A DNA stretch of 64,000 nt from Ornithodoros turicata (lineage: Eukaryota; Arthropoda; Arachnida; Ixodida; Argasidae). Position numbers and translations under genes: made by a program. The notes under the pieces are model-generated. The model ran no database searches and was not told the DNA's origin. It saw only the letters and a program-made list of their open reading frames with translations. The DNA lies in NCBI RefSeq assembly GCF_037126465.1, contig NC_088206.1, positions 72,977,687 through 73,041,686 of the forward strand, in the 5' to 3' direction. This document shows positions 5,755 to 57,200 of the stretch, one piece after another (position 1 is the first letter of the stretch; every line of letters begins with the position of its first letter).

Positions 5755-8700
5755 ACTAAAAAATAAAAGTGCTCAGATCGAGCTAAAAATGCGCACAGAT
5801 ATTCAGCAGGATTCGCCCTTTAATTTGAGCCCAAAATTTGTGCAGAAATAGGACTTTCGATTTTTGACCCGAAAAAACCCCAAGGGGTTAGCTTACCTTT
5901 TTTTCCGGCCAAAAAATAAAAGTGCTCAGATCGAGCTAAAAATGCGCACAGATATTCAGCAGGAATCGCCCTTTAATTTGAGCCCAAAATTTGTGCAGAA
6001 ATAGGACTTTCGATTTTTGACCCGAAAAAACCCCAAGGGGTTAGGCTTACCTTTTTTTCCGGCCAAAAAATAAAAGTGCTCAGATCGAGCTAAAAATGCG
6101 CACAGATACTCAGCAGGAATCGCCCTTTAATTTTAGCCCAAAATTTGTGCAGAAATAGGACTTTCGATTTTTGACCCGAAAAAACCCCAAGGGTGGCTTA
6201 CCTTTTTTTCCGGCCAAAAAATAAAAGTGCTCAGATCGAGCTAAAAATGCGCACAGATATTCAGCAGGAATCGCCCTTTAATTTGAGCCCAAAATTTGTG
6301 CAGAAATAGGACTTTCGATTTTTGACCCGAAAAAACCCCAAGGGTTAGGCTTCCTTTTTTTCCGGCCAAAAAATAAAAGTGCTCAGATCGAGCTAAAAAT
6401 GCGCACAGATACTCAGCAGGATTCGCCCTTTAATTTGAGCCCAAAATTTGTGCAGAAATAGGACTTTCGATTTTTGACCCGAAAAAACCCCAAGGGGTTA
6501 GGCTTACCTTTTTTTCCGGCCAAAAAATAAAAGTGCTCAGATCGAGCTAAAAATGCGCACAGATACTCAGCAGGAATCGCCCTTTAATTTTAGCCCAAAA
6601 TTTGTGCAGAAATAGGACTTTCGATTTTTGACCCGAAAAAACCCCAAGGGGTTAGGCTTACCTTTTTTTCCGGCCAAAAAATAAAAGTGCTCAGATCGAG
6701 CTAAAAATGCGCACAGATATTCAGCAGGAATCGCCCTTTAATTTGAGCCCAAAATTTGTGCAGAAATAGGACTTTCGATTTTTGACCCGAAAAAACCCCA
6801 AGGGGTTAGGCTTACCTTTTTTTCCGGCCAAAAAATAAAAGTGCTCAGATCGAGCTAAAAATGCGCACAGATNNNNNNNNNNNNNNNNNNNNNNNNNNNN
6901 NNNNNNNNNNNNNNNNNNNNNNNNNNNNNNNNNNNNNNNNNNNNNNNNNNNNNNNNNNNNNNNNNNNNNNNNCGATTTTTGACCTGAAAAAAACCCAAGG
7001 GGTTAGGCTTACCTTTTTTTCCGGCCAAAAAATAAAAGTGCTCAGATCGAGCTAAAAATGCGCACAGATACTCAGCAGGAATCGCCCTTTAATTTTAGCC
7101 CAAAATTTGTGCAGAAATAGGACTTTCGATTTTTGACCTGAAAAAACCCCAAGGGGCTTACCTTTTTTTCCGGCCAAAAAATAAAAGTGCTCAGATCGAG
7201 CTAAAAATGCGCACAGATATTCAGCAGGAATCGCCCTTTAATTTTAGGCCAAAATTTGTGCAGAAATAGGACTTTCGATTTTTGACCCGAAAAAACCCCA
7301 AGGGGTTAGGCTTACCTTTTTTTCCGGCCAAAAAATAAAAGTGCTCAGATCGAGCTAAAAATGCGCACAGATACTCAGCAGGAATCGCCCTTTAATTTTA
7401 GCCCAAAATTTGTGCAGAAATAGGACTTTCGATTTTTGACCCGAAAAAACCCCAAGGGAGGCTTACCTTTTTTTCCGGCCAAAAAATAAAAGTGCTCAGA
7501 TCGAGCTAAAAATGCGCACAGATACTCAGCAGGAATCGCCCTTTAATTTTAGCCCAAAATTTGTGCAGAAATAGGACTTTACCTTTTTTTCCGGCCAAAA
7601 AATAAAAGTGCTCAGATCGAGCTAAAAATGCGCACAGATACTCAGCAGGAATCGCCCTTTAATTTTAGCCCAAAATTTGTGCAGAAATAGGACTTTCGAT
7701 TTTTGACCTGAAAAAACCCCAAGGGGTTAGGCTTACCTTTTTTTCCGGCCAAAAAATAAAAGTGCTCAGATCGAGCTAAAAATGCGCACAGATACTCAGC
7801 AGGAATCGCCCTTTAATTTTAGCCCAAAATTTGTGCAGAAATAGGACTTTCGATTTTGACCTGAAAAAACCCCAAGGGGTTAGGCTTACCTTTTTTTCCG
7901 GCCAAAAAATAAAAGTGCTCAGATCGAGCTAAAAATGCGCACAGATACTCAGCAGGAATCGCCCTTTAATTTTAGCCCAAAATTTGTGCAGAAATAGGAC
8001 TTTCGATTTTTGACCCGAAAAAACCCCAAGGGGAGGCTTACCTTTTTTTCCGGCCAAAAAATAAAAGTGCTCAGATCGAGCTAAAAATGCGCACAGATAC
8101 TCAGCAGGAATCGCCCTTTAATTTTAGCCCAAAATTTGTGCAGAAATAGGACTTTCGATTTTTGACCTGAAAAAACCCCAAGGGGCTTACCTTTTTTTCC
8201 GGCCAAAAAATAAAAGTGCTCAGATCGAGCTAAAAATGCGCACAGATATTCAGCAGGAATCGCCCTTTAATTTTAGGCCAAAATTTGTGCAGAAATAGGA
8301 CTTTCGATTTTTGACCCGAAAAAACCCCAAGGGGTTAGGCTTACCTTTTTTTCCGGCCAAAAAATAAAAGTGCTCAGATCGAGCTAAAAATGCGCACAGA
8401 TACTCAGCAGGAATCGCCCTTTAATTTTAGCCCAAAATTTGTGCAGAAATAGGACTTTCGATTTTTGACCTGAAAAAACCCCAAGGGGTTAGGCTTACCT
8501 TTTTTTCCGGCCAAAAAATAAAAGTGCTCAGATCGAGCTAAAAATGCGCACAGATACTCAGCAGGAATCGCCCTTTAATTTTAGCCCAAAATTTGTGCAG
8601 AAATAGGACTTTCGATTTTTGACCCGAAAAAACCCCAAGGGGTTAGGCTTACCTTTTTTTCCGGCCAAAAAATAAAAGTGCTCAGATCGAGCTAAAAATG

Positions 8701-35798: not shown

Positions 35799-38700
35799 AT
35801 GAAGAAATTGGTGGCAATGGCCGCGTCTCTCTTATTCGTCACCATCGGCCTGGTCGGAATCATGTATTACATTTATTTTGTGGAGAATGGTGAGAATTTT
35901 TTCCTACTCGATACCACGTCCGTTTCCTATTGTGGAATGCGCTTGCCGTGTCTTCCTTTATATAGGGCGAGTCTCTACAACGTTCTTCCTATACGAACCG
36001 AACGCTAGTACGGGAAACACACTTTATGCTGTTAAGTTGATTATTCAAAATTAAAACGGTGTTTAAACCCTAATTCAGAGTTCGTAGAACAAAGCGCAAA
36101 GAGGCATCGCAAGAACTCACTTAAGTGTAAACACCCATGTATTTAGATGAATATTTCACAAACACGTGACAAATGACGTATCGGAATGAAAATGTGTAAG
36201 TTACTGCTAGATGACCATCTAAAACGTCCTCTCAGGTACAGGAGTCGTCCATGGTTGACCGAGCCTTTTGCTCGGTGAGTAAATAAAGACTTTCGGAGGA
36301 CCAAGTGCAATCCTTCGCAAGTCACGTGCAGCAATCATGGCGGTGAGCTGGGGAACAGCGATATACAGGGTGTCCCAGAAAACGTGGAATTAACTACGCC
36401 ACCTAGAATCACGCTTGGAAAAACATTTCTTCTTACTAGGTTTTTGCCACCTCCTGATGTGAATGGCCTCTTAAGTTTTATTATGTCATTTTTTTACAAA
36501 CTCAACTCGGAAATTTGCAAAGGAAAAGTCGCTTTTTACCCTACCAATGTGAAGCGCGTGCCGAATTTACTCATGTTCACGATAACTGTAAATAGTGAGG
36601 AGCTATGCCATCAGCGTTTCGGAGCGCAAACAACCTAGCGCTCGAACCTTTTCTGCGACCTCTCACTCCGAGGAAGGGTGGCTGCTAAACCCAGCTCACA
36701 GAGCCATTGTTTCATAGAGCCAAGCATTGCAACACGCCCCGATTATGAACCCCGAGGCTGGTATCCGGATGCAGTAGCTTAGACCATAGCCAAGAGAAGC
36801 CATTTGTACCCCTTGTGGCGACAGTGATGAGCCTCGCCATTTTGCAGTGCCTCCATTGCACTATCTATGACGCACCCAAAGAGTCACCCTCTATAACCAC
36901 TACCTATATTTCTTGCAAAAACAGAGCCCGAAACAGCAGTGACTTGGACTGCGAAGGCGACAAAGGTTCGAAGGGCACATGAAGGGAATCCGGGTCTTGT
37001 ATCACCCTCATACCCGGGCACCCAGCATAGCCCGAGACACGAACCATCGTCTACTTTTTCCGAAAACTTCAGAAAAACAAGCTCTCCATTGACACTCCAA
37101 ACCGAAACGGAATATTTAAATGAGACGACATACGTGGACCAAACGTTCTGGGTGCCAGGCTCCACGACAGGTGCAAGATCGATGTCACGTCCAACTATCA
37201 AGTCGAGAGAACTGTCTCACGACGCAACAATCGACAAGAACCAAAGTAACGCTGTTACGTCGACTGGAAGTAAAACTATAGAGGTGACAAGTCCGAACGC
37301 AACGTACGTCCAGGATATTGATAACTTCACCGATAATGCGTTGCCGCGGAACAGCAGAATGTTGAATTATGTGCCTGGTACAAACGTTTTCGTCAAACAC
37401 TGGTCGCATAAAAACACTACAGCTGCAGGGCGGACAAAGCAACACGGTTTCACAGCAGACATTACAGGGATAAAGTTCAAAGCCTACTCTCTTAACGCGA
37501 GTAACTTGGACGCGCTAATGCGAAACAAAAGCAACGCGAGGGAGGACACTGAAAAAGTGGTCGCGAACATATCTGGTTATCCCGAACACCTGTTGGGAAG
37601 CCGTCGAAAAATTACCTTGAAGCATTACTTCATCACTATTACTAATGGCCCGACAAACGGGAACTCGGGAGAGGCTTCGACCGAGGACATCAAAGAAGTT
37701 GATATAGCCACATACACAGAGAGATCTATCCAGGCAGGAGATTTATTTAGCACCGCAATTACTACCACCAACCGTGACGTTCTTACAACCACGAAGCGTA
37801 CTGGAGGCGCGGCGTACAGGACTTCCGAGGACGTCCAGGGTGACACTGTGGAAGACACTGGAACGTTGGAGGCTGATACAAGTCACGTTCTCAGGACTGT
37901 AAGGCACGATGATTTCTCCGATACAACCAACACCGCTACAGAGGAAATTGACACGACCGTGGTTGCCAAGAGTAGCAGCACGTCCTCTGACAAGGCTCAA
38001 GATCCCTTGCACGGGACAAGCAGTCAGATTAACCAGAATGTTCTCACGACTGCAGATTCTGAAAAAAACACATTTGAGGGTGCAACATTCTGGGTACCCG
38101 AAGACCTGACGGACACGTTGACAAAGGGTGCTGGGATGGCAATGAGCACCAACACGACATCTGTGAAGGCTGACTACCTCTCGGGTATTAGCAGTAGTCC
38201 AATGGACCGAAACGTTCTCACTCCTGGAGATCAAGAAAAAAGTATGCCTGTCGAGGTGACTACCTTGGTGATGGAAGAAGCTGCCCCAAATAGAAGCAAG
38301 AAGACTACAACTACGGAGTTTATCGAAAGGGCCCGGCGGGCGCAAGACGGCACCGTTGACATCCGGCATATTACGTCCCAGTGGACCTCTAGTACCCCAA
38401 GAGCAGGAAAGGTTATGGTGAGCAGCTCCGTTGGAGCTACAACGACAGAACACAAGAGCACACCGTCAGGACTGCCTGTCTTGGCCACTACAGGTAATCA
38501 GTTGTCTTATGATCGAAGAAGTATTATGCGGTAGAGCCCACTGCCTCCACTCCAACGTCATGTTAATGATTTCTCGGGCATTTCTGGCAGAGTTGGTCCT
38601 TAACGCTCATAGCCACATTTGCTCCGTGGTGCACAGAGATACGGTAAAAGGTATACTGATTACTGTTTCAGCTCATCAAGCATAGATAACGGATAGTTCG

Positions 38701-41700
38701 TTGGTTTACGTCGCGCGGAAAGTGTGGTCATGGGTTAGGTCATAATGGTGGACTAACTTTGCCCCACCGACATATCTTACACCAGCTGCACAGCTTATTG
38801 ACAAAGCGGCAATAAAGCAGTTGCAGGTGCGCCGGAGCATGTCATAATTAATTATATGCGCAGCGGCGGCCATTTTACGAAGCTTAATGTTTCAGTATGA
38901 CGTCTATGAATCACATTATCGACTGCAATGCATGGTCCCTTCAGGTGCAGAGACCTCGCCTCCGCAGGAGCGCCTCTTACTGTGCACCCTGGGCGGCAAG
39001 ATCCCCGAAGCACATTTCCCGAAAGATGGTCTCTGTGACTTTCTCTTTTACACGCACGTGTTTCTCGACCTCAGTCGTCTCGATGTAGTTTCGACATCGG
39101 ATGACGATTCGTTTACTCACTTCAAGAGGATGGCCGCCAGGAGGGGAAAACGCACGTCTTTCGCTTTCTCTTTCCATATCGAGTGAGTTTTTCTCGTCCT
39201 GCTGTCCATATGTCATTGACTGGGTTCCTCTTCCAGCTTTGTCATGAATGTGGCTCTAAACAGTGGCAATTTCTCCCGTTCGGAATATATCACGCACCAC
39301 GGGATCCTCAACGTCATCGGTGACTCCAATCAGATTGACCGTTATGTCGACAACATCCGAACCGTACTGCCGGTATGTAGGAGTGTATTGCTAAGTGTCT
39401 GCAGCATGCATTGTTGTGCTGAAGACTGACAGGTTGCCAATGAAGTCGGCCCAGAATGTATACTAACTACACTGAATAACAATGGTCGCCGGTACACTTC
39501 TTGAGATAGTTATAGGAAATCAGCAGGTAGTTTGCTAAGCATCTAATCTGTGAATGCAGAGGGGCATATAGGAACTGATAGTTAGAGCTGAGCGCGGGTA
39601 CGTATACCCGCGGGTACCCGCACATCGTCACGATTTGCGAGTAGGAATTCGCAATCGCTGCGGGTAGTGAGTAACATGCGGGTGTACCGCAATGCGACCG
39701 CGGGTATACCCGCATTACCCGCACTCCATGGCCGAGTAAGTGATCCCTCTCTGTCAAACGCGAGCTCAGCAGTGCCTTATGTCGTTGGCTGTATAAATCC
39801 ATGTGCCAGACTGCGGCAGGCAAGTGCTGGCAGGCGAGCTCGATTATTAATGCAGACAGATATGGCTCTCTGTTGAATTGCAGTTTTACTGGCATATGAT
39901 TGAAGCCGTCCGAGACACGTAGCCAACCCTCAGAATTTCCATTGTTTTAAAATAGAAAAGCGGTAAAGTGGACGAGTAGCACTTCCCCTGCGGGTCCCAA
40001 TGCGGTTATGCGGGTATACAGACAGCACTGCAGGTGCGGGTCGCTCAGATGAAATTCTTGCGGGTGCCGGTCACACACGCGCGGGTACTGTGCGGGTCCA
40101 AGTTTGCTTACCCGCACTCACCTCTACTGATAGTGTCACGTCTTTTTCCCTTCAAAACGAGTAGCATCATCGACATCTAATCTGGCATCTGTGAGCAATT
40201 ACCGCGGAGACTGCTCGAAAGAATAATGGCGTCACATTCATCATTAGAGGGCTACCTCTTCAGGATCACCCAGGAGATTGCATACGACGATCATGCCAAA
40301 TAGGATCACCTTAGATCATCCACCAGTTTCGAACATATCAAGTCCTCAAACCTATTTCACAAGAGCATAGTTTCCCTTTCGAGACCCTCAGGTAACACGC
40401 ACTGCAACAGCCCACTCAGCTCAAAGATTGATATAAGGCTATCGTCAAAAAGACAGAGGTGGCACTCGAACAATCTCTTCTTGACTGTCTGTAGAGCGCG
40501 CTGACAACCATATTTAGAATGCTAATTGCTTAGCATCACACGCACTACTATGAACTATGTGAGGGTGCAACTTACGTAGTAGGTGCCGAACGACTTCAAA
40601 ACGCAGGTCTTGAGGAATCTCCAGAAGCAGCCCAAAAACCCTGTGGCCATCGCTGTAGGAGTCCTCAAAAAGGTTGACTTGCCTCAACTGCCAAGACTCA
40701 TCAAGGACATCGTGAAGTAAGACATCGCAATACACTCTTCTTTCGGCAGCATTTCAGAAAGACGCCCATTTTATGCAGGGCAGGAGCTGACATAGTGGTC
40801 GTCAGAACACACGTTTCCCACTGGAATGTAAACGAGAGCATGGCCACTGTAGGCGCGACCAGTTGGAAAAATTCTTGGATGGCCGAACACCCTTCCATGG
40901 TAAGTGTGTCCCTCGTGCTGGGTCTGAGAGAATGCGAGAAACCATTCTGCTATGCTACAGGTTTCAAAGCATTTAGGGTATAGTGACAGCCTTCTGCATC
41001 ACTCCATAGGAACAATATCCAATCCTCCGTCTAAAGCGATCCGCCTACAGGTCTCGCAGTATTCAGGGTATAGCAGAAGAACAATGGCAGCCCTCTGCAT
41101 CACTCCATAGGAACAATGCCCAATCCTCCGCCTAAAGCGATCGGACTTTGTTCTATGGCTCATCTGTGTCCATAGCCAACAGGCAATGTATCACAGAAGA
41201 ACGTACCATCATTCTGCTATGCTAGAGGTATCACAGTATTTAGGGTATAGCTGAAGAACAATGGCAGCCCTCTGCATCACTCCATAGGAACAATGCCCAA
41301 TCCTCCGCCTAAAGCGATCGGACTTTGTTCTATGGCTCATCTGTGTCCATAGCCAACAGGCAATGTATCACAGAAGAACGTACCATCATTCTGCTATGCT
41401 AGAGGTATCACAGTATTTAGGGTATAGCTGAAGAACAATGGCAGCCCTCTGCATCACTCCATAGGAACAATGCCCAATCCTCCGCCTAAAGCGATCGGAC
41501 TTTGTTCTATGGCTCATCTGTGTCCATAGCCAACAGGCAATGTATCACAGAAGAACGTACCATCATTCTGCTATGCTAGAGGTATCACAGTATTTAGGGT
41601 ATAGCTGAAGAACAATGGCAGCCCTCTGCATCACTCCATAGGAACAATGCCCAATCCTCCGCCTAAAGCGATCGGACTTTGTTCTATGGCTCATCTGTGT

Positions 41701-44700
41701 CCATAGCCAACAGGCAATGTATCACAGAAGAACGTACCATCATTCTGCTATGCTAGAGGTATCACAGTATTTAGGGTATAGCTGAAGAACAATGGCAGCC
41801 CTCTGCATCACTCCATAGGAACAATGCCCAATCCTCCGCCTAAAGCGATCGGACTTTGTTCTATGGCTCATCTGTGTCCATAGCCAACAGGCAATGTATC
41901 ACAGAAGAACGTACCATCATTCTGCTATGCTAGAGGTATCACAGTATTTAGGGTATAGCTGAAGAACAATGGCAGCCCTCTGCATCACTCCATAGGAACA
42001 ATGCCCAATCCTCCGCCTAAAGCGATCGGACTTTGTTCTATGGCTCATCTGTGTCCATAGCCAACAGGCAATGTATCACAGAAGAACGTACCATCATTCT
42101 GCTATGCTAGAGGTATCACAGTATTTAGGGTATAGCTGAAGAACAATGGCAGCCCTCTGCATCACTCCATAGGAACAATGCCCAATCCTCCGCCTAAAGC
42201 GATCGGACTTTGTTCTATGGCTCATCTGTGTCCATAGCCAACAGGCAATGTATCACAGAAGAACGTACCATCATTCTGCTATGCTAGAGGTATCACAGTA
42301 TTTAGGGTATAGCTGAAGAACAATGGCAGCCCTCTGCATCACTCCATAGGAACAATGCCCAATCCTCCGCCTAAAGCGATCGGACTTTGTTCTATGGCTC
42401 ATCTGTGTCCATAGCCAACAGGCAATGTATCACAGAAGAACGTACCATCATTCTGCTATGCTAGAGGTATCACAGTATTTAGGGTATAGCTGAAGAACAA
42501 TGGCAGCCCTCTGCATCACTCCATAGGAACAATGCCCAATCCTCCGCCTAAAGCGATCGGACTTTGTTCTATGGCTCATCTGTGTCCATAGCCAACAGGC
42601 AATGTATCACAGAAGAACGTACCATCATTCTGCTATGCTAGAGGTATCACAGTATTTAGGGTATAGCTGAAGAACAATGGCAGCCCTCTGCATCACTCCA
42701 TAGGAACAATGCCCAATCCTCCGCCTAAAGCGATCGGACTTTGTTCTATGGCTCATCTGTGTCCATAGCCAACAGGCAATGTATCACAGAAGAACGTACC
42801 ATCATTCTGCTATGCTAGAGGTATCACAGTATTTAGGGTATAGCTGAAGAACAATGGCAGCCCTCTGCATCACTCCATAGGAACAATGCCCAATCCTCCG
42901 CCTAAAGCGATCGGACTTTGTTCTATGGCTCATCTGTGTCCAGAGCCAACAGGCAATGTATCACAGAAGAACGTACCATCATTCTGCTATGCTAGAGGTA
43001 TCACAGTATTTAGGGTATAGCAGAAGAACAATGGCAGCCCTCTGCATCACTCCATAGGAACAATGCCCAATCCTCCGCCTAAAGCGATCGGACTTTGTTC
43101 TATGGCTCATCTGTGTCCATAGCCAACAGGCAATGTATCACAGAAGAACGTACCATCATTCTGCTATGCTAGAGGTATCACAGTATTTAGGGTATAGCTG
43201 AAGAACAATGGCAGCCCTCTGCATCACTCCATAGGAACAATGCCCAATCCTCCGCCTAAAGCGATCGGACTTTGTTCTATGGCTCATCTGTGTCCAGAGC
43301 CAACAGGCAATGTATCACAGAAGAACGTACCATCATTCTGCTATGCTAGAGGTATCACAGTATTTAGGGTATAGCAGAAGAACAATGGCAGCCCTCTGCA
43401 TCACTCCATAGGAACAATGCCCAATCCTCCGCCTAAAGCGATCGGACTTTGTTCTATGGCTCATCTGTGTCCATAGCCAACAGGCAATGTATCACAGAAG
43501 AACGTACCATCATTCTGCTATGCTAGAGGTATCACAGTATTTAGGGTATAGCGGAAGAACAATGGCAGCCCTCTGCATCACTCCATAGGAACAATGCCCA
43601 ATCCTCCGCCTAAAGCGATCGGACTTTGTTCTATGGCTCATCTGTGTCCATAGCAAACAGGCAATGTATCACAGAAGAACGTACCATCATTCTGCTATGC
43701 TAGAGGTATCACAGTATTTAGGGTATAGCAGAAGAACAATGGCAGCCCTCTGCATCACTCCATAGGAACAATGCCCAATCCTCCGCCTAAAGCGATCGGA
43801 CTTTGTTCTATGGCTCATCTGTGTCCATAGCCAACAGGCAATGTATCACAGAAGAACGTACCATCATTCTGCTATGCTAGAGGTATCACAGTATTTAGGG
43901 TATAGCTGAAGAACAATGGCAGCCCTCTGCATCACTCCATAGGAACAATGCCCAATCCTCCGCCTAAAGCGATCGGACTTTGTTCTATGGCTCATCTGTG
44001 TCCAGAGCCAACAGGCAATGTATCACAGAAGAACGTACCATCATTCTGCTATGCTAGAGGTATCACAGTATTTAGGGTATAGCAGAAGAACAATGGCAGC
44101 CCTCTGCATCACTCCATAGGAACAATGCCCAATCCTCCGCCTAAAGCGATCGGACTTTGTTCTATGGCTCATCTGTGTCCATAGCCAACAGGCAATGTAT
44201 CACAGAAGAACGTACCATCATTCTGCTATGCTAGAGGTATCACAGTATTTAGGGTATAGCGGAAGAACAATGGCAGCCCTCTGCATCACTCCATAGGAAC
44301 AATGCCCAATCCTCCGCCTAAAGCGATCGGACTTTGTTCTATGGCTCATCTGTGTCCATAGCAAACAGGCAATGTATCACAGAAGAACGTACCATCATTC
44401 TGCTATGCTAGAGGTATCACAGTATTTAGGGTATAGCAGAAGAACAATGGCAGCCCTCTGCATCACTCCATAGGAACAATGCCCAATCCTCCGCCTAAAG
44501 CGATCGGACTTTGTTCTATGGCTCATCTGTGTCCATAGCCAACAGGCAATGTATCACAGAAGAACGTACCATCATTCTGCTATGCTAGAGGTATCACAGT
44601 ATTTAGGGTATAGCTGAAGAACAATGGCAGCCCTCTGCATCACTCCATAGGAACAATGCCCAATCCTCCGCCTAAAGCGATCGGACTTTGTTCTATGGCT

Positions 44701-47700
44701 CATCTGTGTCCATAGCCAACAGGCAATGTATCACAGAAGAACGTACCATCATTCTGCTATGCTAGAGGTATCACAGTATTTAGGGTATAGCTGAAGAACA
44801 ATGGCAGCCCTCTGCATCACTCCATAGGAACAATGCCCAATCCTCCGCCTAAAGCGATCGGACTTTGTTCTATGGCTCATCTGTGTCCATAGCCAACAGG
44901 CAATGTATCACAGAAGAACGTACCATCATTCTGCTATGCTAGAGGTATCACAGTATTTAGGGTATAGCTGAAGAACAATGGCAGCCCTCTGCATCACTCC
45001 ATAGGAACAATGCCCAATCCTCCGCCTAAAGCGATCGGACTTTGTTCTATGGCTCATCTGTGTCCATAGCCAACAGGCAATGTATCACAGAAGAACGTAC
45101 AATCATTCTGCTATGCTAGAGGTATCACAGTATTTAGGGTATAGCTGAAGAACAATGGCAGCCCTCTGCATCACTCCATAGGAACAATGCCCAGTCCTCC
45201 GCCTAAAGCGATCGGACTTTGTTCTATGGCTCATCTGTGTCCATAGCCAACAGGCAATGTATCACAGAAGAACGTACCATCATTCTGCTATGCTAGAGGT
45301 ATCACAGTATTTAGGGTGTAGCTGAAGAACAATGACAGCCCTCTGCATCACTCCATGGGAACAATGCCCAGTCCTCCGCCTAAAGCGATCGGGCTTTGTT
45401 CTATGGCTCATCTGTGTCCATAGCCAACAGGCAATGTATCACAGAAGAACGTACCATCATTCTGCTATGCTAGAGGTATCACAGTATTTAGGGTATAGCT
45501 GAAGAACAATGGCAGCCCTCTGCATCACTCCATAGGAACAATGCCCAGTCCTCCGCCTAAAGCGATCGGGCTTTGTTCTATGGCTCATCTGTGTCCATAG
45601 CCAACAGGCAATGTATCACAGAAGAACGTACCATCATTCTGCTATGCTAGAGGTATCACAGTATTTAGGGTATAGCAGAAGAACAATGGCAGCCCTCTGC
45701 ATCACTCCATAGGAACAATGCCCAATCCTCCGCCTAAAGCGATCGGACTTTGTTCTATGGCTCATCTGTGTCCATAGCCAACAGGCAATGTATCACAGAA
45801 GAACGTACCATCATTCTGCTATGCTAGAGGTATCACAGTATTTAGGGTATAGCTGAAGAACAATGGCAGCCCTCTGCATCACTCCATAGGAACAATGCCC
45901 AGTCCTCCGCCTAAAGCGATCGCACTTTGTTCTATGGCTCATCTGTGTCCATAGCCAACAGGCAATGTATCACAGAAGAACGTACCATCATTCTGCTATG
46001 CAGGAGGTTTCACAGCATTTATGGTATAGATGAATGATGGCAGGTCTGTGCACCACTCCATAGGAAATTAGGCAATGTACCACAAAAGAACGTGCAACCT
46101 TTCTACTATGCTAGAGGTCCCACAGCATTTAGGATATAGGTGAAGAACAATGGCAGCCCTCTGCATCGAGCATGGGAAACAATGTCCAACCTCCTCCAAA
46201 GGCCATCACGTTGGGGTCTACATGGCTCATCCGTGTCCATAGCCAATGGGCCATGTACCACTGAGGAATGTACCACTATGCATGGCTCATCCATGCCCGT
46301 AGCTAATAGGCAATGTACCACATAAGAGCATACCATCGTTCTGCTATGCTAGAGGTCAAACAGCATTTAGAGTATAGCAGAAGAACAATGGTTGCCATTT
46401 TCATCACTCCATAGGAAACAATGCTGAGTCTCTTCCTAAGGTGATCACACTTTGGCTTATAGCTCATTTGTGTCCTTAGCCAATACGTAACATTTGGTGA
46501 TGTCAAGCATGTGACTTTGAGGATGCTGTATATGGCCGGCCACAATCATACGTGCGTGCAACAAGTTGTGGCCATGGTTCGAGAACCTGGTGACTAGTCA
46601 AACCAACCATTATCTGCGTAGTGGGTGTATTGACATGCTCAAGAGCCAGGTGTAGTTTGTGAGAGAAGTGATAAAGGATACTGCTTCAACTCGTGGCCTG
46701 GAACCGAAAGAACTACTCCTGTCCACGTATATGCCACCCGATTGGTTTCACATTTCGTCACCAGATGCCCAAAATGTGTCAGGTGCCACAGCTCGCATGT
46801 TGCACACAAGCATGATTGTGACTTTGTGACTGTACAATAAGAAGAGACTCATTTTGCAGCTGGACACTCTAGAGCTACTAGTCAGTCTGGTTCCCATTCC
46901 AGCTGTACTGATGATGTCTTTCACAATGGGGGTGGCCTTGTTTGAGATGCCTCCTAGTTGGAAAAATGAAACCAGCAGGAACGTAGTACACTACAAACCA
47001 ACCAGTTTTGCACTTGTCAGTTACAGTCAGGTAAGGCAATCTTAGACTACTTCACTTCCATCGCTGCTGTATTAGACAACGATCCTAATCTGCAGTCTAT
47101 TTTGCACCCTTGCAAACTACAGTAGCGTACCCACAGCTTACACAACAGATCACAATGGCAACTGCTTCACGAAGCCCTGCTTATAGTCCAACCAATCACA
47201 GTCACTGGCTGGTGGAGAGCAACCAAACCACATGCTATACAAAATTTTCGCAACATTGCCACAATCATAAACATGCTTTTAATGATCACACCCTACAGCC
47301 GCACTGGCAGCAATTTGTAGCAATCTTCCGCAGGTGTCACAGAGCAGGCCTCGTTTAACCTAGAGGATATTGCAGCGGCACAATTACTCCTGCTGAGCTT
47401 AGCATGAAGAAGTGATGATAATTTCAGCTGAATTATCGCGATCTTATCAACTTACTTTTAACAACCAGTGATGTGCCCTCTGTTTTCATCGCAGGTGTGC
47501 ACCACACCATTTAGCAAAACGCAAGTGCTGTACCCTGAAGAATTTGTTGTTAGTGGGAACCGATACACCCACGAGCAGTACATATATGACACTGAAAAAA
47601 CGATTTCTCAAAAAGTAAGCGGAATCATCATCTTGAGAACCACCACCACCATCATTTAGAGAGCAGATAAAAACAAAGGTATATGCGAACACACTTTTTT

Positions 47701-47860
47701 CCAGCTTGTATACGCTGATCACACATTGTCCGCGCACTATGTGTCGCCCAACAAATTGAGCTGGGCAGTCTTCAACACAGAGCTGGAAGACTACCAGGGT
47801 GCATGTGGGCCAAACACTGATTTTCAACGTCTCCGCCGTCTCCGATACGAGCTTGGTTGA
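35799..47860 (+). CDS. membrane-anchored mucin-stalk protein with degenerate GH18 (chitinase-like) ectodomain
   Basis: Nine exons: 35799-35889, 36925-38493, 38945-39182, 39237-39372, 40583-40716, 40779-40899, 46860-47030, 47495-47614, 47705-47860. They total 2736 bases, 911 codons plus stop, and every junction agrees in phase. Residues 5-28 are a hydrophobic signal-anchor (type II). Residues 31-553, mostly one exon, form a Thr/Ser-rich stalk with NXS/T sites and repeated NVLT and TFWVP phrases. Residues 554-911 resemble a GH18 barrel: CTLGGKIP...DGLCDFLFYTH (first strand), VKAGADIVVVRTHVSHW (about 722-738), YDTEKTISQK (851-860) and SWAVFNTELEDYQGACG at the last strand, like the chitinase W-A-x-D-x-D-D-F-x-G signature. 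The catalytic DxxDxDxE motif is absent, so a carbohydrate-binding or signalling role is more likely than hydrolysis (inference). I associate this kind of protein with ticks; the GH18 link is by eye. Intron 6 carries a satellite and intron 4 a hAT element. Confidence 0.82.
36369..36640. mobile_element. transposon end in intron 1 of the GH18-like gene
   Basis: TATA followed by CAGGGTGTCCCAGAAAACG is the same kind of terminal sequence as the foldback element at 54189-54856 (CAGGGCGTCCCACG). The matching right end was not found, so the 3' limit is a guess. Confidence 0.4.
38605..38640. mobile_element. SINE 3' fragment in intron 2 of the GH18-like gene
   Basis: CGCTCATAGCCACATTTGCT followed by CCGTGGTGC is a diverged match to the shared SINE tail (GCTCATGGCCACAGTTGCTT) seen at 2798-2892. 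Confidence 0.35.
39583..40126. mobile_element. 544 bp non-autonomous hAT-type element, complete, with 8 bp target duplication
   Basis: The left end TAGAGCTGAGCGCGGGTA and the reverse complement of the right end TAGAGGTGAGTGCGGGTA match at 16 of 18. The element is flanked by identical octamers CTGATAGT (39575-39582 and 40127-40134). Both ends are rich in GCGGGTA/TACCCGC motifs, repeated in both directions. There is no transposase. It lies in intron 4 of the GH18-like gene. Confidence 0.85.
40943..46480. repeat. 177 bp satellite array inside an intron, 28 good units plus decayed edges
   Basis: Units starting with CTGAAGAACAATGGCAGCCC (variants CAGAAG, CGGAAG) step by 177 bases from 41074 to about 46029, giving 28 near-identical copies. 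A partly rearranged unit precedes them (from about 40943), and several diverged units follow to about 46480. The whole block lies within intron 6 (40900-46859) of the GH18-like gene. Unit identity is very high in the centre and falls at both edges, as expected of an array homogenised by unequal exchange. It is unrelated in sequence to the 154 bp satellite. Confidence 0.97.
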
Positions 47861-54200: not shown

Positions 54201-57200
54201 CGTAACAGTCGCCGAGCTTTAAAGAAAAAAGTTGTATTTGTGGATGAAACCAACTGCATGTCGTTAAGAATCGCCGAAGGCTGATAGTCAATATTTTTCA
54301 TTTACACTCATCGGCTTATTAATTAAAATTAACAAACTTTTTAATTAGGGACTCGAGAGCCAAAATGTCAATGGGCAGGTCATAGAGTAAGTTGATGCAT
54401 TTTCGAATAAGCTGTCCTAAACAAAGTAAATGCTAAACAAAGTAAATGTCCTAAACAAAGTAAATGCTCTGCCAGACAGGGTTTATTTTTCACGTTAGCC
54501 TCGGAATAAACGTTGCTGTGGCAAATGCGTGAGTGTGTTACAAGGGTGACGCATGAGCCGGCAGTCCGGCAGTACTCTTTTAAATTTCACTGGCTTTCTT
54601 TTTCAGCAGGAAAAAAGAAACCCCTAACGCTTTGAGGACACTTTATTCGAAAGTGTCCCAACTTACCCCGTAACCTGTTCACTGACACTTTGGCTCTCGA
54701 GTGACTAAATAAAAAGCTATTTAATTGACTTCTAGTTAGCTAATTTGCATAAACAAGAAAATACTGGTTATCAGCTTTGAGGACTCTCAACAACATGCAC
54801 TTGGTTTCATCCACGAAACCGTGCGCGTTTAGGCGACTGTCAAGTGGGACAACCTGTATAATATGATGCCACTCTAAGGAGACTGCAAAGATAAACTGGC
54901 GCCATTTCGTCTTTTCAGGTTTATCCGACTGTGGGTCCAAATCCCTACACCATGCTTCAGGAAGCATTCACAATCAAAGGAGACAGATGATGACTGCAGA
55001 AGGCAGGCAGAACGTGTAAGCTATCTGTTCCCTCAGGACAGCAGTCCCACAGCACAGGATGCTGACAGGATACATGCTGGGGGGGACAAGCTAAGTCAGA
55101 TAATATATCATATAATCTGTATCAAATAGTATAGGACAACTACGCTAGGAACTTTTGCAAAGGATGACAAAGACAAAACGTTCTCAGTACGGATGCAATA
55201 TAGAGAAGCGAGACACCTTTCTGGATGGTGACTTGGATGTAGGAAATGCCCTCGAGCTCCGAGGGCAGGGTCACCTTGAGGGAGCTGCCTCTCGGGGGAG
55301 CACCAGAAGTCCCAATTTCGGGGGTTGTTGGCTGTTTGGTGATGGCCAGAGCCTGGGCACTCTTGGAAACCTCGAAGGTACCGCTTTGCCAGAAGCGGGA
55401 ACCAGCTGCAATGCTTCAAGATTAGTCTCTCGCTAGCTCTTATTAGTTGGCTCACAGCAATGATCGTAACCTCGTAAATGCGTTCAGCCGGAGAATGGCA
55501 CAAAATGCTTAAATCTCTAATAGGATTGAGCTCGTGCTAACAGCGCTAAAGTTGGACAAGACGGAACACGAATCACACACACCGAGGCACCAACAAATGA
55601 CTGGGGCACGGTACAAGAAAGAAAGAAAGGACGGGAAATTTACTAGGCGTTTCTAATCGAGAGGGCAGAGGACCGATGTGTGAGCACTGCTTCCATTTTA
55701 TTGGGTGAAGATGAGATAAGCTTGAGGTCGTCTCTATCTCCGCTGGTTCTGTTAGTAAACTGTTGAGAGTCGTGTTGAGGTTCGTGCCTCATCCTGTCCA
55801 ATTTTAGCGCGTTTACCGCAAGTTCAATGTTGCATCAACAGGCTCAAAGAGGAGTCTTATATCCCTAATCAAGGTTACCCTGCTGAAAAAATCCTACTCT
55901 AGCATCTCCACTTATAGGGCTCCTATACTAGTTTTGGCATACTGCTTGTTGCAACATAGAGTAATAAGACGAGTCATTGCAGTCAGTAGCAACAATGTAA
56001 CATTCTTAGGTTGTCAATATCCTGATAGTGTTTAAGATTTGTTTACCTTTTAGCGGATATCTTTTTAAAATCGTGTCACATCACAGAAATCACTTCACTG
56101 TAGCACGTGCCTAAGGCACTACGTACTAAGGCTACTGAGGACAGCACCGAGGATCCTCCTTCACCATTTAACTCCAGATGGATACACGAGTAAAGAAACC
56201 CGTTAAAAGTCCGACAATCAGCAACATCCTGCGACACACATTTTTCGCCAATCGAGTCTCGCATCAGATTGACTTTGTAATTCTCGATATCTCATCTAAG
56301 ATATTAAAGAAACAGTTATGCTCCAGCAACAGGAATAAAGGCATTACCACTACGATACGAAAGGTCTCCCAAAATGGTGTTGCCGACTTTTTTAAGTCGC
56401 CAATTCTGGCGCATGTGCAGCAGCTCAACGTGAAAATCAGGCACAAGACGCATCCTTCCGGCCGCCTCCGCCTGGGATGTCCGCAGGCACTCCGCACCAT
56501 TGAGAAGCGTCGTTGCCGCTGATGCCAAAGCCTGAAAAAAAAAAAAAAAAAAACGCGGATTACAAACGACGATATTTTCTCGTAAACACGACACCAAGAA
56601 GACATCCTCGAGGATAAACAGATACCACTATGTTCAGCATCGACCGACAATCTACATTGGCCCCTTTTCTCGAGGCCATGGAATTCCAGCATACTCTCAA
56701 CATCTGCCACGTGCTCCATCAAATTGCGTCACTATTTCGTGTGCAACTCTCAATACCTTGGTCAGCAAAGGAATAAAATGACACCACAGTTTCCAAGTCG
56801 ACTGGAATGGATGTGCCCATCCCTTTAAACCTGCAGTTTCAAAAATGCTTACAACCCTCCCTTTGTGAGACATCTAAGTATAGGAAACTGCGAGAGGAGA
56901 AAGGTCTTTACCTTTTTCTTTGCCAACATCATGGCTACTGGTTTATGCTCGGGTTGTTCTTGCGACACCGGATCCAACACCATGTAGTGCTTCTGTTTGG
57001 CAATGTTGAGGACATCCGACAGGACACTCACTTCAGTCAGGGCATTTCTGAGTGGAAAAGACTAGTTTAACCATAATTACGTGGCTTAATAATAATAGGC
57101 AACCACGAGAAGCACCACAGTCGTATTTTGTCGCAGGTTCCATAACGCACATTCAAACCTCTGCCCATGGAACCCGTGACGGAAGATGACACGTTTAAAA

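Follow-up and report, generated by a model that had tools for sequence, protein, structure and literature searches.

A predicted type II membrane protein with a stalk and a catalytically inactive GH18-like domain, and its multigene family, in the tick Ornithodoros turicata

The 64,000-nucleotide stretch of the Ornithodoros turicata genome analysed here (the window; NC_088206.1, forward-strand positions 72,977,687 to 73,041,686) contains, at 35799–47860, a gene whose product is probably a type II surface protein with a signal-anchor at the N-terminus, followed by a long flexible stalk that is presumably glycosylated and, at the C-terminus, by a GH18-fold domain lacking chitinase chemistry; it would serve ligand binding or surface coating. 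The large family harbouring this gene is apparently undescribed.

Nine exons, separated by eight GT-AG introns, were all recovered; they join into 911 codons plus stop with no internal stop, exactly as the initial annotation had proposed from the letters alone (Table 1). A protein search with the family profile returned a public model, P0003 ('uncharacterized protein LOC135397324 isoform X2 [Ornithodoros turicata]', 835 residues), which equals this chain from residue 1 through the end of exon 7, minus the eight residues (PNDFKTQV) that open exon 5. An independent gene model therefore unites the anchor, the stalk and most of the domain, and the earlier view that the stalk and ectodomain exons form one gene holds. 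If exon 5 starts where P0003 places it, at 40607 and not 40583, the chain with exons 8 and 9 has 903 residues. Isoform X2 has a different last exon in place of exons 8 and 9; this would take away barrel strand 8, so that X2 might fail to form a barrel. Exons 8 and 9 are supported by homology to the C-terminal ends of the relatives P0001, P0002 and P0006, not by a transcript. Another route for exon 8, through 47334 (VTEQASFNLED...), was dropped, because exon 7 would then have to use GTCAGG as its donor and the frame soon ends.

Table 1. Coordinates of the exons and of the strand-4 motif, as positions within the window.
Feature	Position	Strand	Remarks
Exon 1	35799..35889	+	Start codon, 3-residue cytosolic tail, signal-anchor (hydrophobic residues ~4–28)
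Exon 2	36925..38493	+	Thr/Ser-rich stalk, ~523 residues, 10 N-glycosylation sequons, predicted disordered
Exon 3	38945..39182	+	Barrel strands 1–3 (LLCTLG, LCDFLFYTHVFLD, FAFSFHI)
Exon 4	39237..39372	+	Barrel strand 4
HHGILNVIG	39295..39321	+	Family pattern HxGxLN where GH18 has DxxDxDxE; strand 4 of P0001 model, correspondence inferred from strand order
Exon 5	40583..40716	+	Strand 5; start 40607 (24 bases later) in public model
Exon 6	40779..40899	+	Strand 6, RTHVSHWN...GATSWKN
Exon 7	46860..47030	+	Strand 7
Exon 8	47495..47614	+	Domain part between strands 7 and 8; absent from isoform X2
Exon 9	47705..47860	+	Strand 8 (SWAVFNTELEDYQGAC) and stop; absent from isoform X2
Alternative last exon of public isoform X2	54919..54990	+	VYPTVGPNPYTMLQEAFTIKGDR; borders by counting

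The highest mean hydropathy over 19 residues (2.45) is found at residues 4–22, extending to about residue 28 by reading. This is the sole stretch outside the domain with a mean above 1.6; a second peak, at residues 773–791, coincides with barrel strand 7. Structure prediction of isoform X2 gives one helix over residues 2–30. Both results bear out the signal-anchor and type II topology first suggested, with a very short cytosolic tail, about three residues long (MKK). Anchors of this kind also occur in P0001, P0002, P0006 and P0008, so that five of the eight proteins P0001–P0008 are anchored by hydropathy, counting P0003; P0005 and P0007 begin at the domain. A single-exon copy on contig C4 (L049) is also anchored by reading. 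A secreted product, in which residues 1–30 are a long cleaved signal peptide, would fit the very short, signal-peptide-like n-region, and is decidedly unlikely: about 25 continuous hydrophobic residues are followed by no small-x-small site (by reading), and some 28–60 residues precede the hydrophobic stretch in P0001, P0002, P0006, P0008 and L049, unlike in signal peptides. Hydropathy and these long-tailed relatives thus point to a predicted signal-anchor.

The stalk contains 16% Thr and 11% Ser (27% together) and 5% Pro. It is Ser/Thr-rich, but less so than a textbook mucin; of the 'mucin' initially described, the stalk of some 520 residues stands, while its mucin character is weaker than stated. 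Stalk length and composition vary among the anchored relatives, the length ranging from ~53 residues in P0001 to ~523 in the window protein.

The case for a GH18-type fold is built on the family. A profile of eight domain sequences, compared with a profile of six GH18-like frames from the same genome, scored 61.6, which exceeds chance; all 30 column shuffles scored 23.0 or less and the reversed alignment 18.7. A profile comparison gave E 4.7e-11. A second family profile, which included P0005, returned GH18 proteins in 21 of 26 rows. The predicted model of the full-length relative P0001 is a GH18-type barrel. The barrel first proposed for the window protein is supported by the predicted fold of this relative; for the window protein itself, modelled as a truncated isoform, it is putative.

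No DxxDxDxE occurs in the window protein or in P0001–P0008 (P0008 being a fragment), in agreement with the motif loss noted at the outset. Strand 4 of the P0001 model (residues 225–235) reads HYGVLNMI, and its window counterpart is HHGILNVIG; on this match every acid of DxxDxDxE is lost in the window protein. In each of the alignments A1 and A2, all six rows share the H, G, L and N of HxGxLN without exception; the G that follows is kept in A1, and not in P0005 (LNIID) or P0007 (LNVID). On the basis of the profile comparison, the shuffle control, the absent motif and the predicted fold of P0001, the domain descends from GH18 and has lost the catalytic glutamate, as in chitolectins. A metal site formed by conserved His near the strand ends was also considered, and no claim is made for it.

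Several observations weigh against a GH18-fold, ligand-binding head on a membrane anchor. Neither the window protein nor its domain matches any Pfam family, including PF00704, up to E 10, so that the PF00704 check set out in the initial annotation came back empty; nor does PF00704 match any of the eight relatives P0001–P0008, even at E 10. A PDB sequence search with the single domain returned nothing of GH18, and with the first family profile (six members) only one of six rows was GH18 (CHI3L1, E 0.58), ranked under ribosomal proteins. The model of isoform X2 is poor (predicted template modelling score, pTM, 0.34), with a non-GH18 barrel ranking first, in a tie. HxGxLN is not universal: P0006 reads HYGILDIRG, the P0008 fragment has no match, three copies on contig C9 (partial predictions) read HHGLVSVT, HHGLLSVT and NYGLLAVTG, and L049 has GFGTLGTRW. 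GH18 enzymes have MxYD on strand 6 and Trp at strand 8. By strand order, these positions correspond to RTHVSHW in the window protein (TSINSW in P0005, SSVSSW in P0007) and to a strand 8 ending in AVF or ALF, with Phe in place of Trp. With these changes besides the catalytic acids, classical chitin-oligosaccharide binding is doubtful, and the ligand may be something other than a glycan. The isoform of P0004 seen has a Ser/Thr-rich stalk (43%) and no anchor.

The replaced canonical binding residues, together with the stalk of ~523 residues, its 10 sequons and the three-residue tail, are also what would be expected of a passive surface coat, in which stalk and glycans do the work and the dead barrel is a ligand-free folded cap. 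This alternative is unlikely, given that barrel residues are conserved among the paralogues and the stalk is not, and that one recent gene pair, described below, has few nonsynonymous changes.

The family is large in this tick, as had been suspected. At E ≤0.001, genome queries by the window domain, P0001, P0007 and P0006 matched 22, 28, 10 and 44 rows, of which 11, 15, 10 and 34 (hand-picked) span strands 1–3. After merging within 8 kb, these correspond to 34 loci including the window, on contigs C1–C7, C9 and C87; C87 is small and may duplicate a placed locus, and some of the 34 may be pseudogenes. Among the proteins P0001–P0008, obtained from protein searches of which the two with profiles scored only the 7998 candidates sharing most words, P0002 and P0004 are O. 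turicata paralogues by name. A Pfam GH18 search of the genome gave 126 exon-level matches, none within ~263 kb of the 33 family loci other than C87 (by eye, part script-checked); C87 itself has no Pfam GH18 match by eye.

The regions read were the window locus, which lies in contig C6, ten others and the C4 copy. L049:21–1310 (+) is a single-exon family member and may be a retrocopy; the frame is still open where the fetched stretch begins on the left, so that the start is provisional, and 24–1310 was used for analysis. Spliced alignment of the window and the ten paralogous regions showed a similar layout of domain exons in several paralogues. The window sequence formed part of the profile, so its own row is not independent; the five best regions were added for round two. 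Five regions scored 324.5–591.5 and the other five 131–200 in round one (reversed controls, for four of the ten regions, 77.5–95.5), and 419–744 and 119–156 in round two (reversed controls 38.0–40.6). The low-scoring five, of which three lie on C9 and two at C6:58.7 Mb, could be recovered only in part and were excluded from later alignments; single exons from four of them entered the comparison of nonsynonymous (dN) and synonymous (dS) divergence.

This comparison bears on a further alternative, namely that the window gene is a functionless, decaying relic of a GH18 gene. The genes at C6:61.18 and C6:70.57 Mb, near-identical, differ over 308 codons by dS 0.044 and dN 0.007; in the C6:70.57 Mb copy (L034–L035) the reading frame is broken within the first domain exon, ahead of the codons compared. 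The pair C9:26.68 and C9:26.75 (65 codons) has dS 0.099 and dN 0.129, and C6:58.70 and C6:58.65 (69 codons) dS 0.045 and dN 0.071. An excess of dN over dS in a single exon of these two recent pairs (nonsynonymous versus synonymous changes 18 vs 4 and 11 vs 2) would suit decay, as would the frame-broken copy and the loss of strand 8 in isoform X2; the counts are small, so that neutral and diversifying change are not separable in the two pairs. The window gene itself is open across 911 codons with eight GT-AG junctions, and family-specific residues are conserved, which makes a relic very improbable.

A second set of genes resembles the window family in having a type II anchor, a GH18 domain and a lost catalytic glutamate; it differs in its single-exon frames, strong PF00704 match and other motif residues. 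Six single-frame PF00704 matches were read, taken from the best eight loci of the genome search. L001, L002, L005, L007 and L008 have a type II anchor, and all five, when tested, matched PF00704 at E 2.7e-26 or better; L006 has no anchor within its 332-residue frame. At the motif position the anchored five read DGINIEWM, DGLHIDWR, DGVVINWN, DGVVLHKV and HGVVLNWL, and L006 KGLLIYWK; the catalytic Glu is missing in all six. L004 retains DGLDMDWE, so that ordinary chitinase genes are also present. With L005 as query, 65 matches were found at E ≤0.001, of which 48 sit in open frames of at least 340 codons. At C1:233.7–234.1 Mb there are 15 more PF00704 matches, 12 of them in frames of 544–569 codons. 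A membrane-bound dead GH18-like protein is thus no one-off in this genome, which holds at least two such sets.

Two repeat arrays were also observed in the window. Intron 6 is mostly filled by a tandem array (41045..46066) in which a 177-base unit recurs 28.4 times, the copies being 98% alike, and a 20-kb satellite array at 5758–26112 holds ~132 copies of a 154-base unit.

Chitolectins such as CHI3L1 are secreted and retain more of the chitin-binding groove. CHI3L1/YKL-40, YKL-39, IDGF2 and AgBR1 share with the window family a GH18-type barrel (predicted, in P0001) and the loss of the catalytic acid, and chitinase-like proteins also have in common with it a stretch conserved at the C-terminus that closes with D(Y/F).G.C. 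The window protein differs in its type II anchor and stalk, the lack of a Pfam match and a different conserved strand-4 motif. Membrane mucins, which are type I and carry a SEA or EGF domain, likewise combine a single membrane anchor with a long ectodomain rich in Ser and Thr; the window protein is type II, lacks SEA and EGF domains, is low in proline and carries a folded barrel at its distal end. Compared by description, a similar tick set is that of Ixodes ricinus haemocytes, where IrSigP-218555 and at least six others are described with the GH18 chitolectin domain of catalytically inactive lectins, one chitolectin-domain protein being over-expressed 25-fold (PMC4430169). These, too, would form a multigene set with an inactive GH18-type domain; they differ in being CDD GH18-positive, and the parts of that report consulted describe no membrane anchor or stalk (PMC4430169). 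A chitinase-like lectin is also listed among lineage-variable tick haemocyte genes (PMC10808623). The literature searched, mostly as listings with the openings of abstracts, yielded no description of a tick chitinase-like family with a membrane anchor and stalk.

Surface binding or shielding by a tethered dead barrel would be the simplest reading of the window protein. The signal-anchor near the N-terminus would hold it in the membrane with the C-terminus outward, and the long flexible stalk, presumably glycosylated, would keep the GH18-fold head away from the membrane. The head may bind a glycan, a glycoprotein, or a microbial or host surface in a repurposed barrel groove, analogously to a soluble chitinase-like lectin, or else it may coat the surface. 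Adhesion or shielding would be preferred to signalling because the cytosolic tail, of about three residues, speaks against an autonomous signalling sensor. By analogy with the haemocyte reports, which concern other genes, an immune-cell role is plausible (PMC4430169, PMC10808623).

Since Pfam misses every family member tested, many probable surface proteins of the tick go by the label 'uncharacterized'. The family would represent a dead enzyme fold that passed from a secreted to a membrane-bound form before multiplying. Much more tentatively, the 34-locus Pfam-invisible family and the Pfam-visible intronless set might together give ticks an extensive surface set of dead chitinase-fold proteins with type II anchors, their grooves diverged copy by copy, acting jointly as a recognition or shielding system on tick cells. 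Should the heads prove to bind glycans or proteins of blood, of the gut or of microbes, these proteins would become candidates for immune recognition in ticks, for protecting the gut surface and as vaccine antigens.
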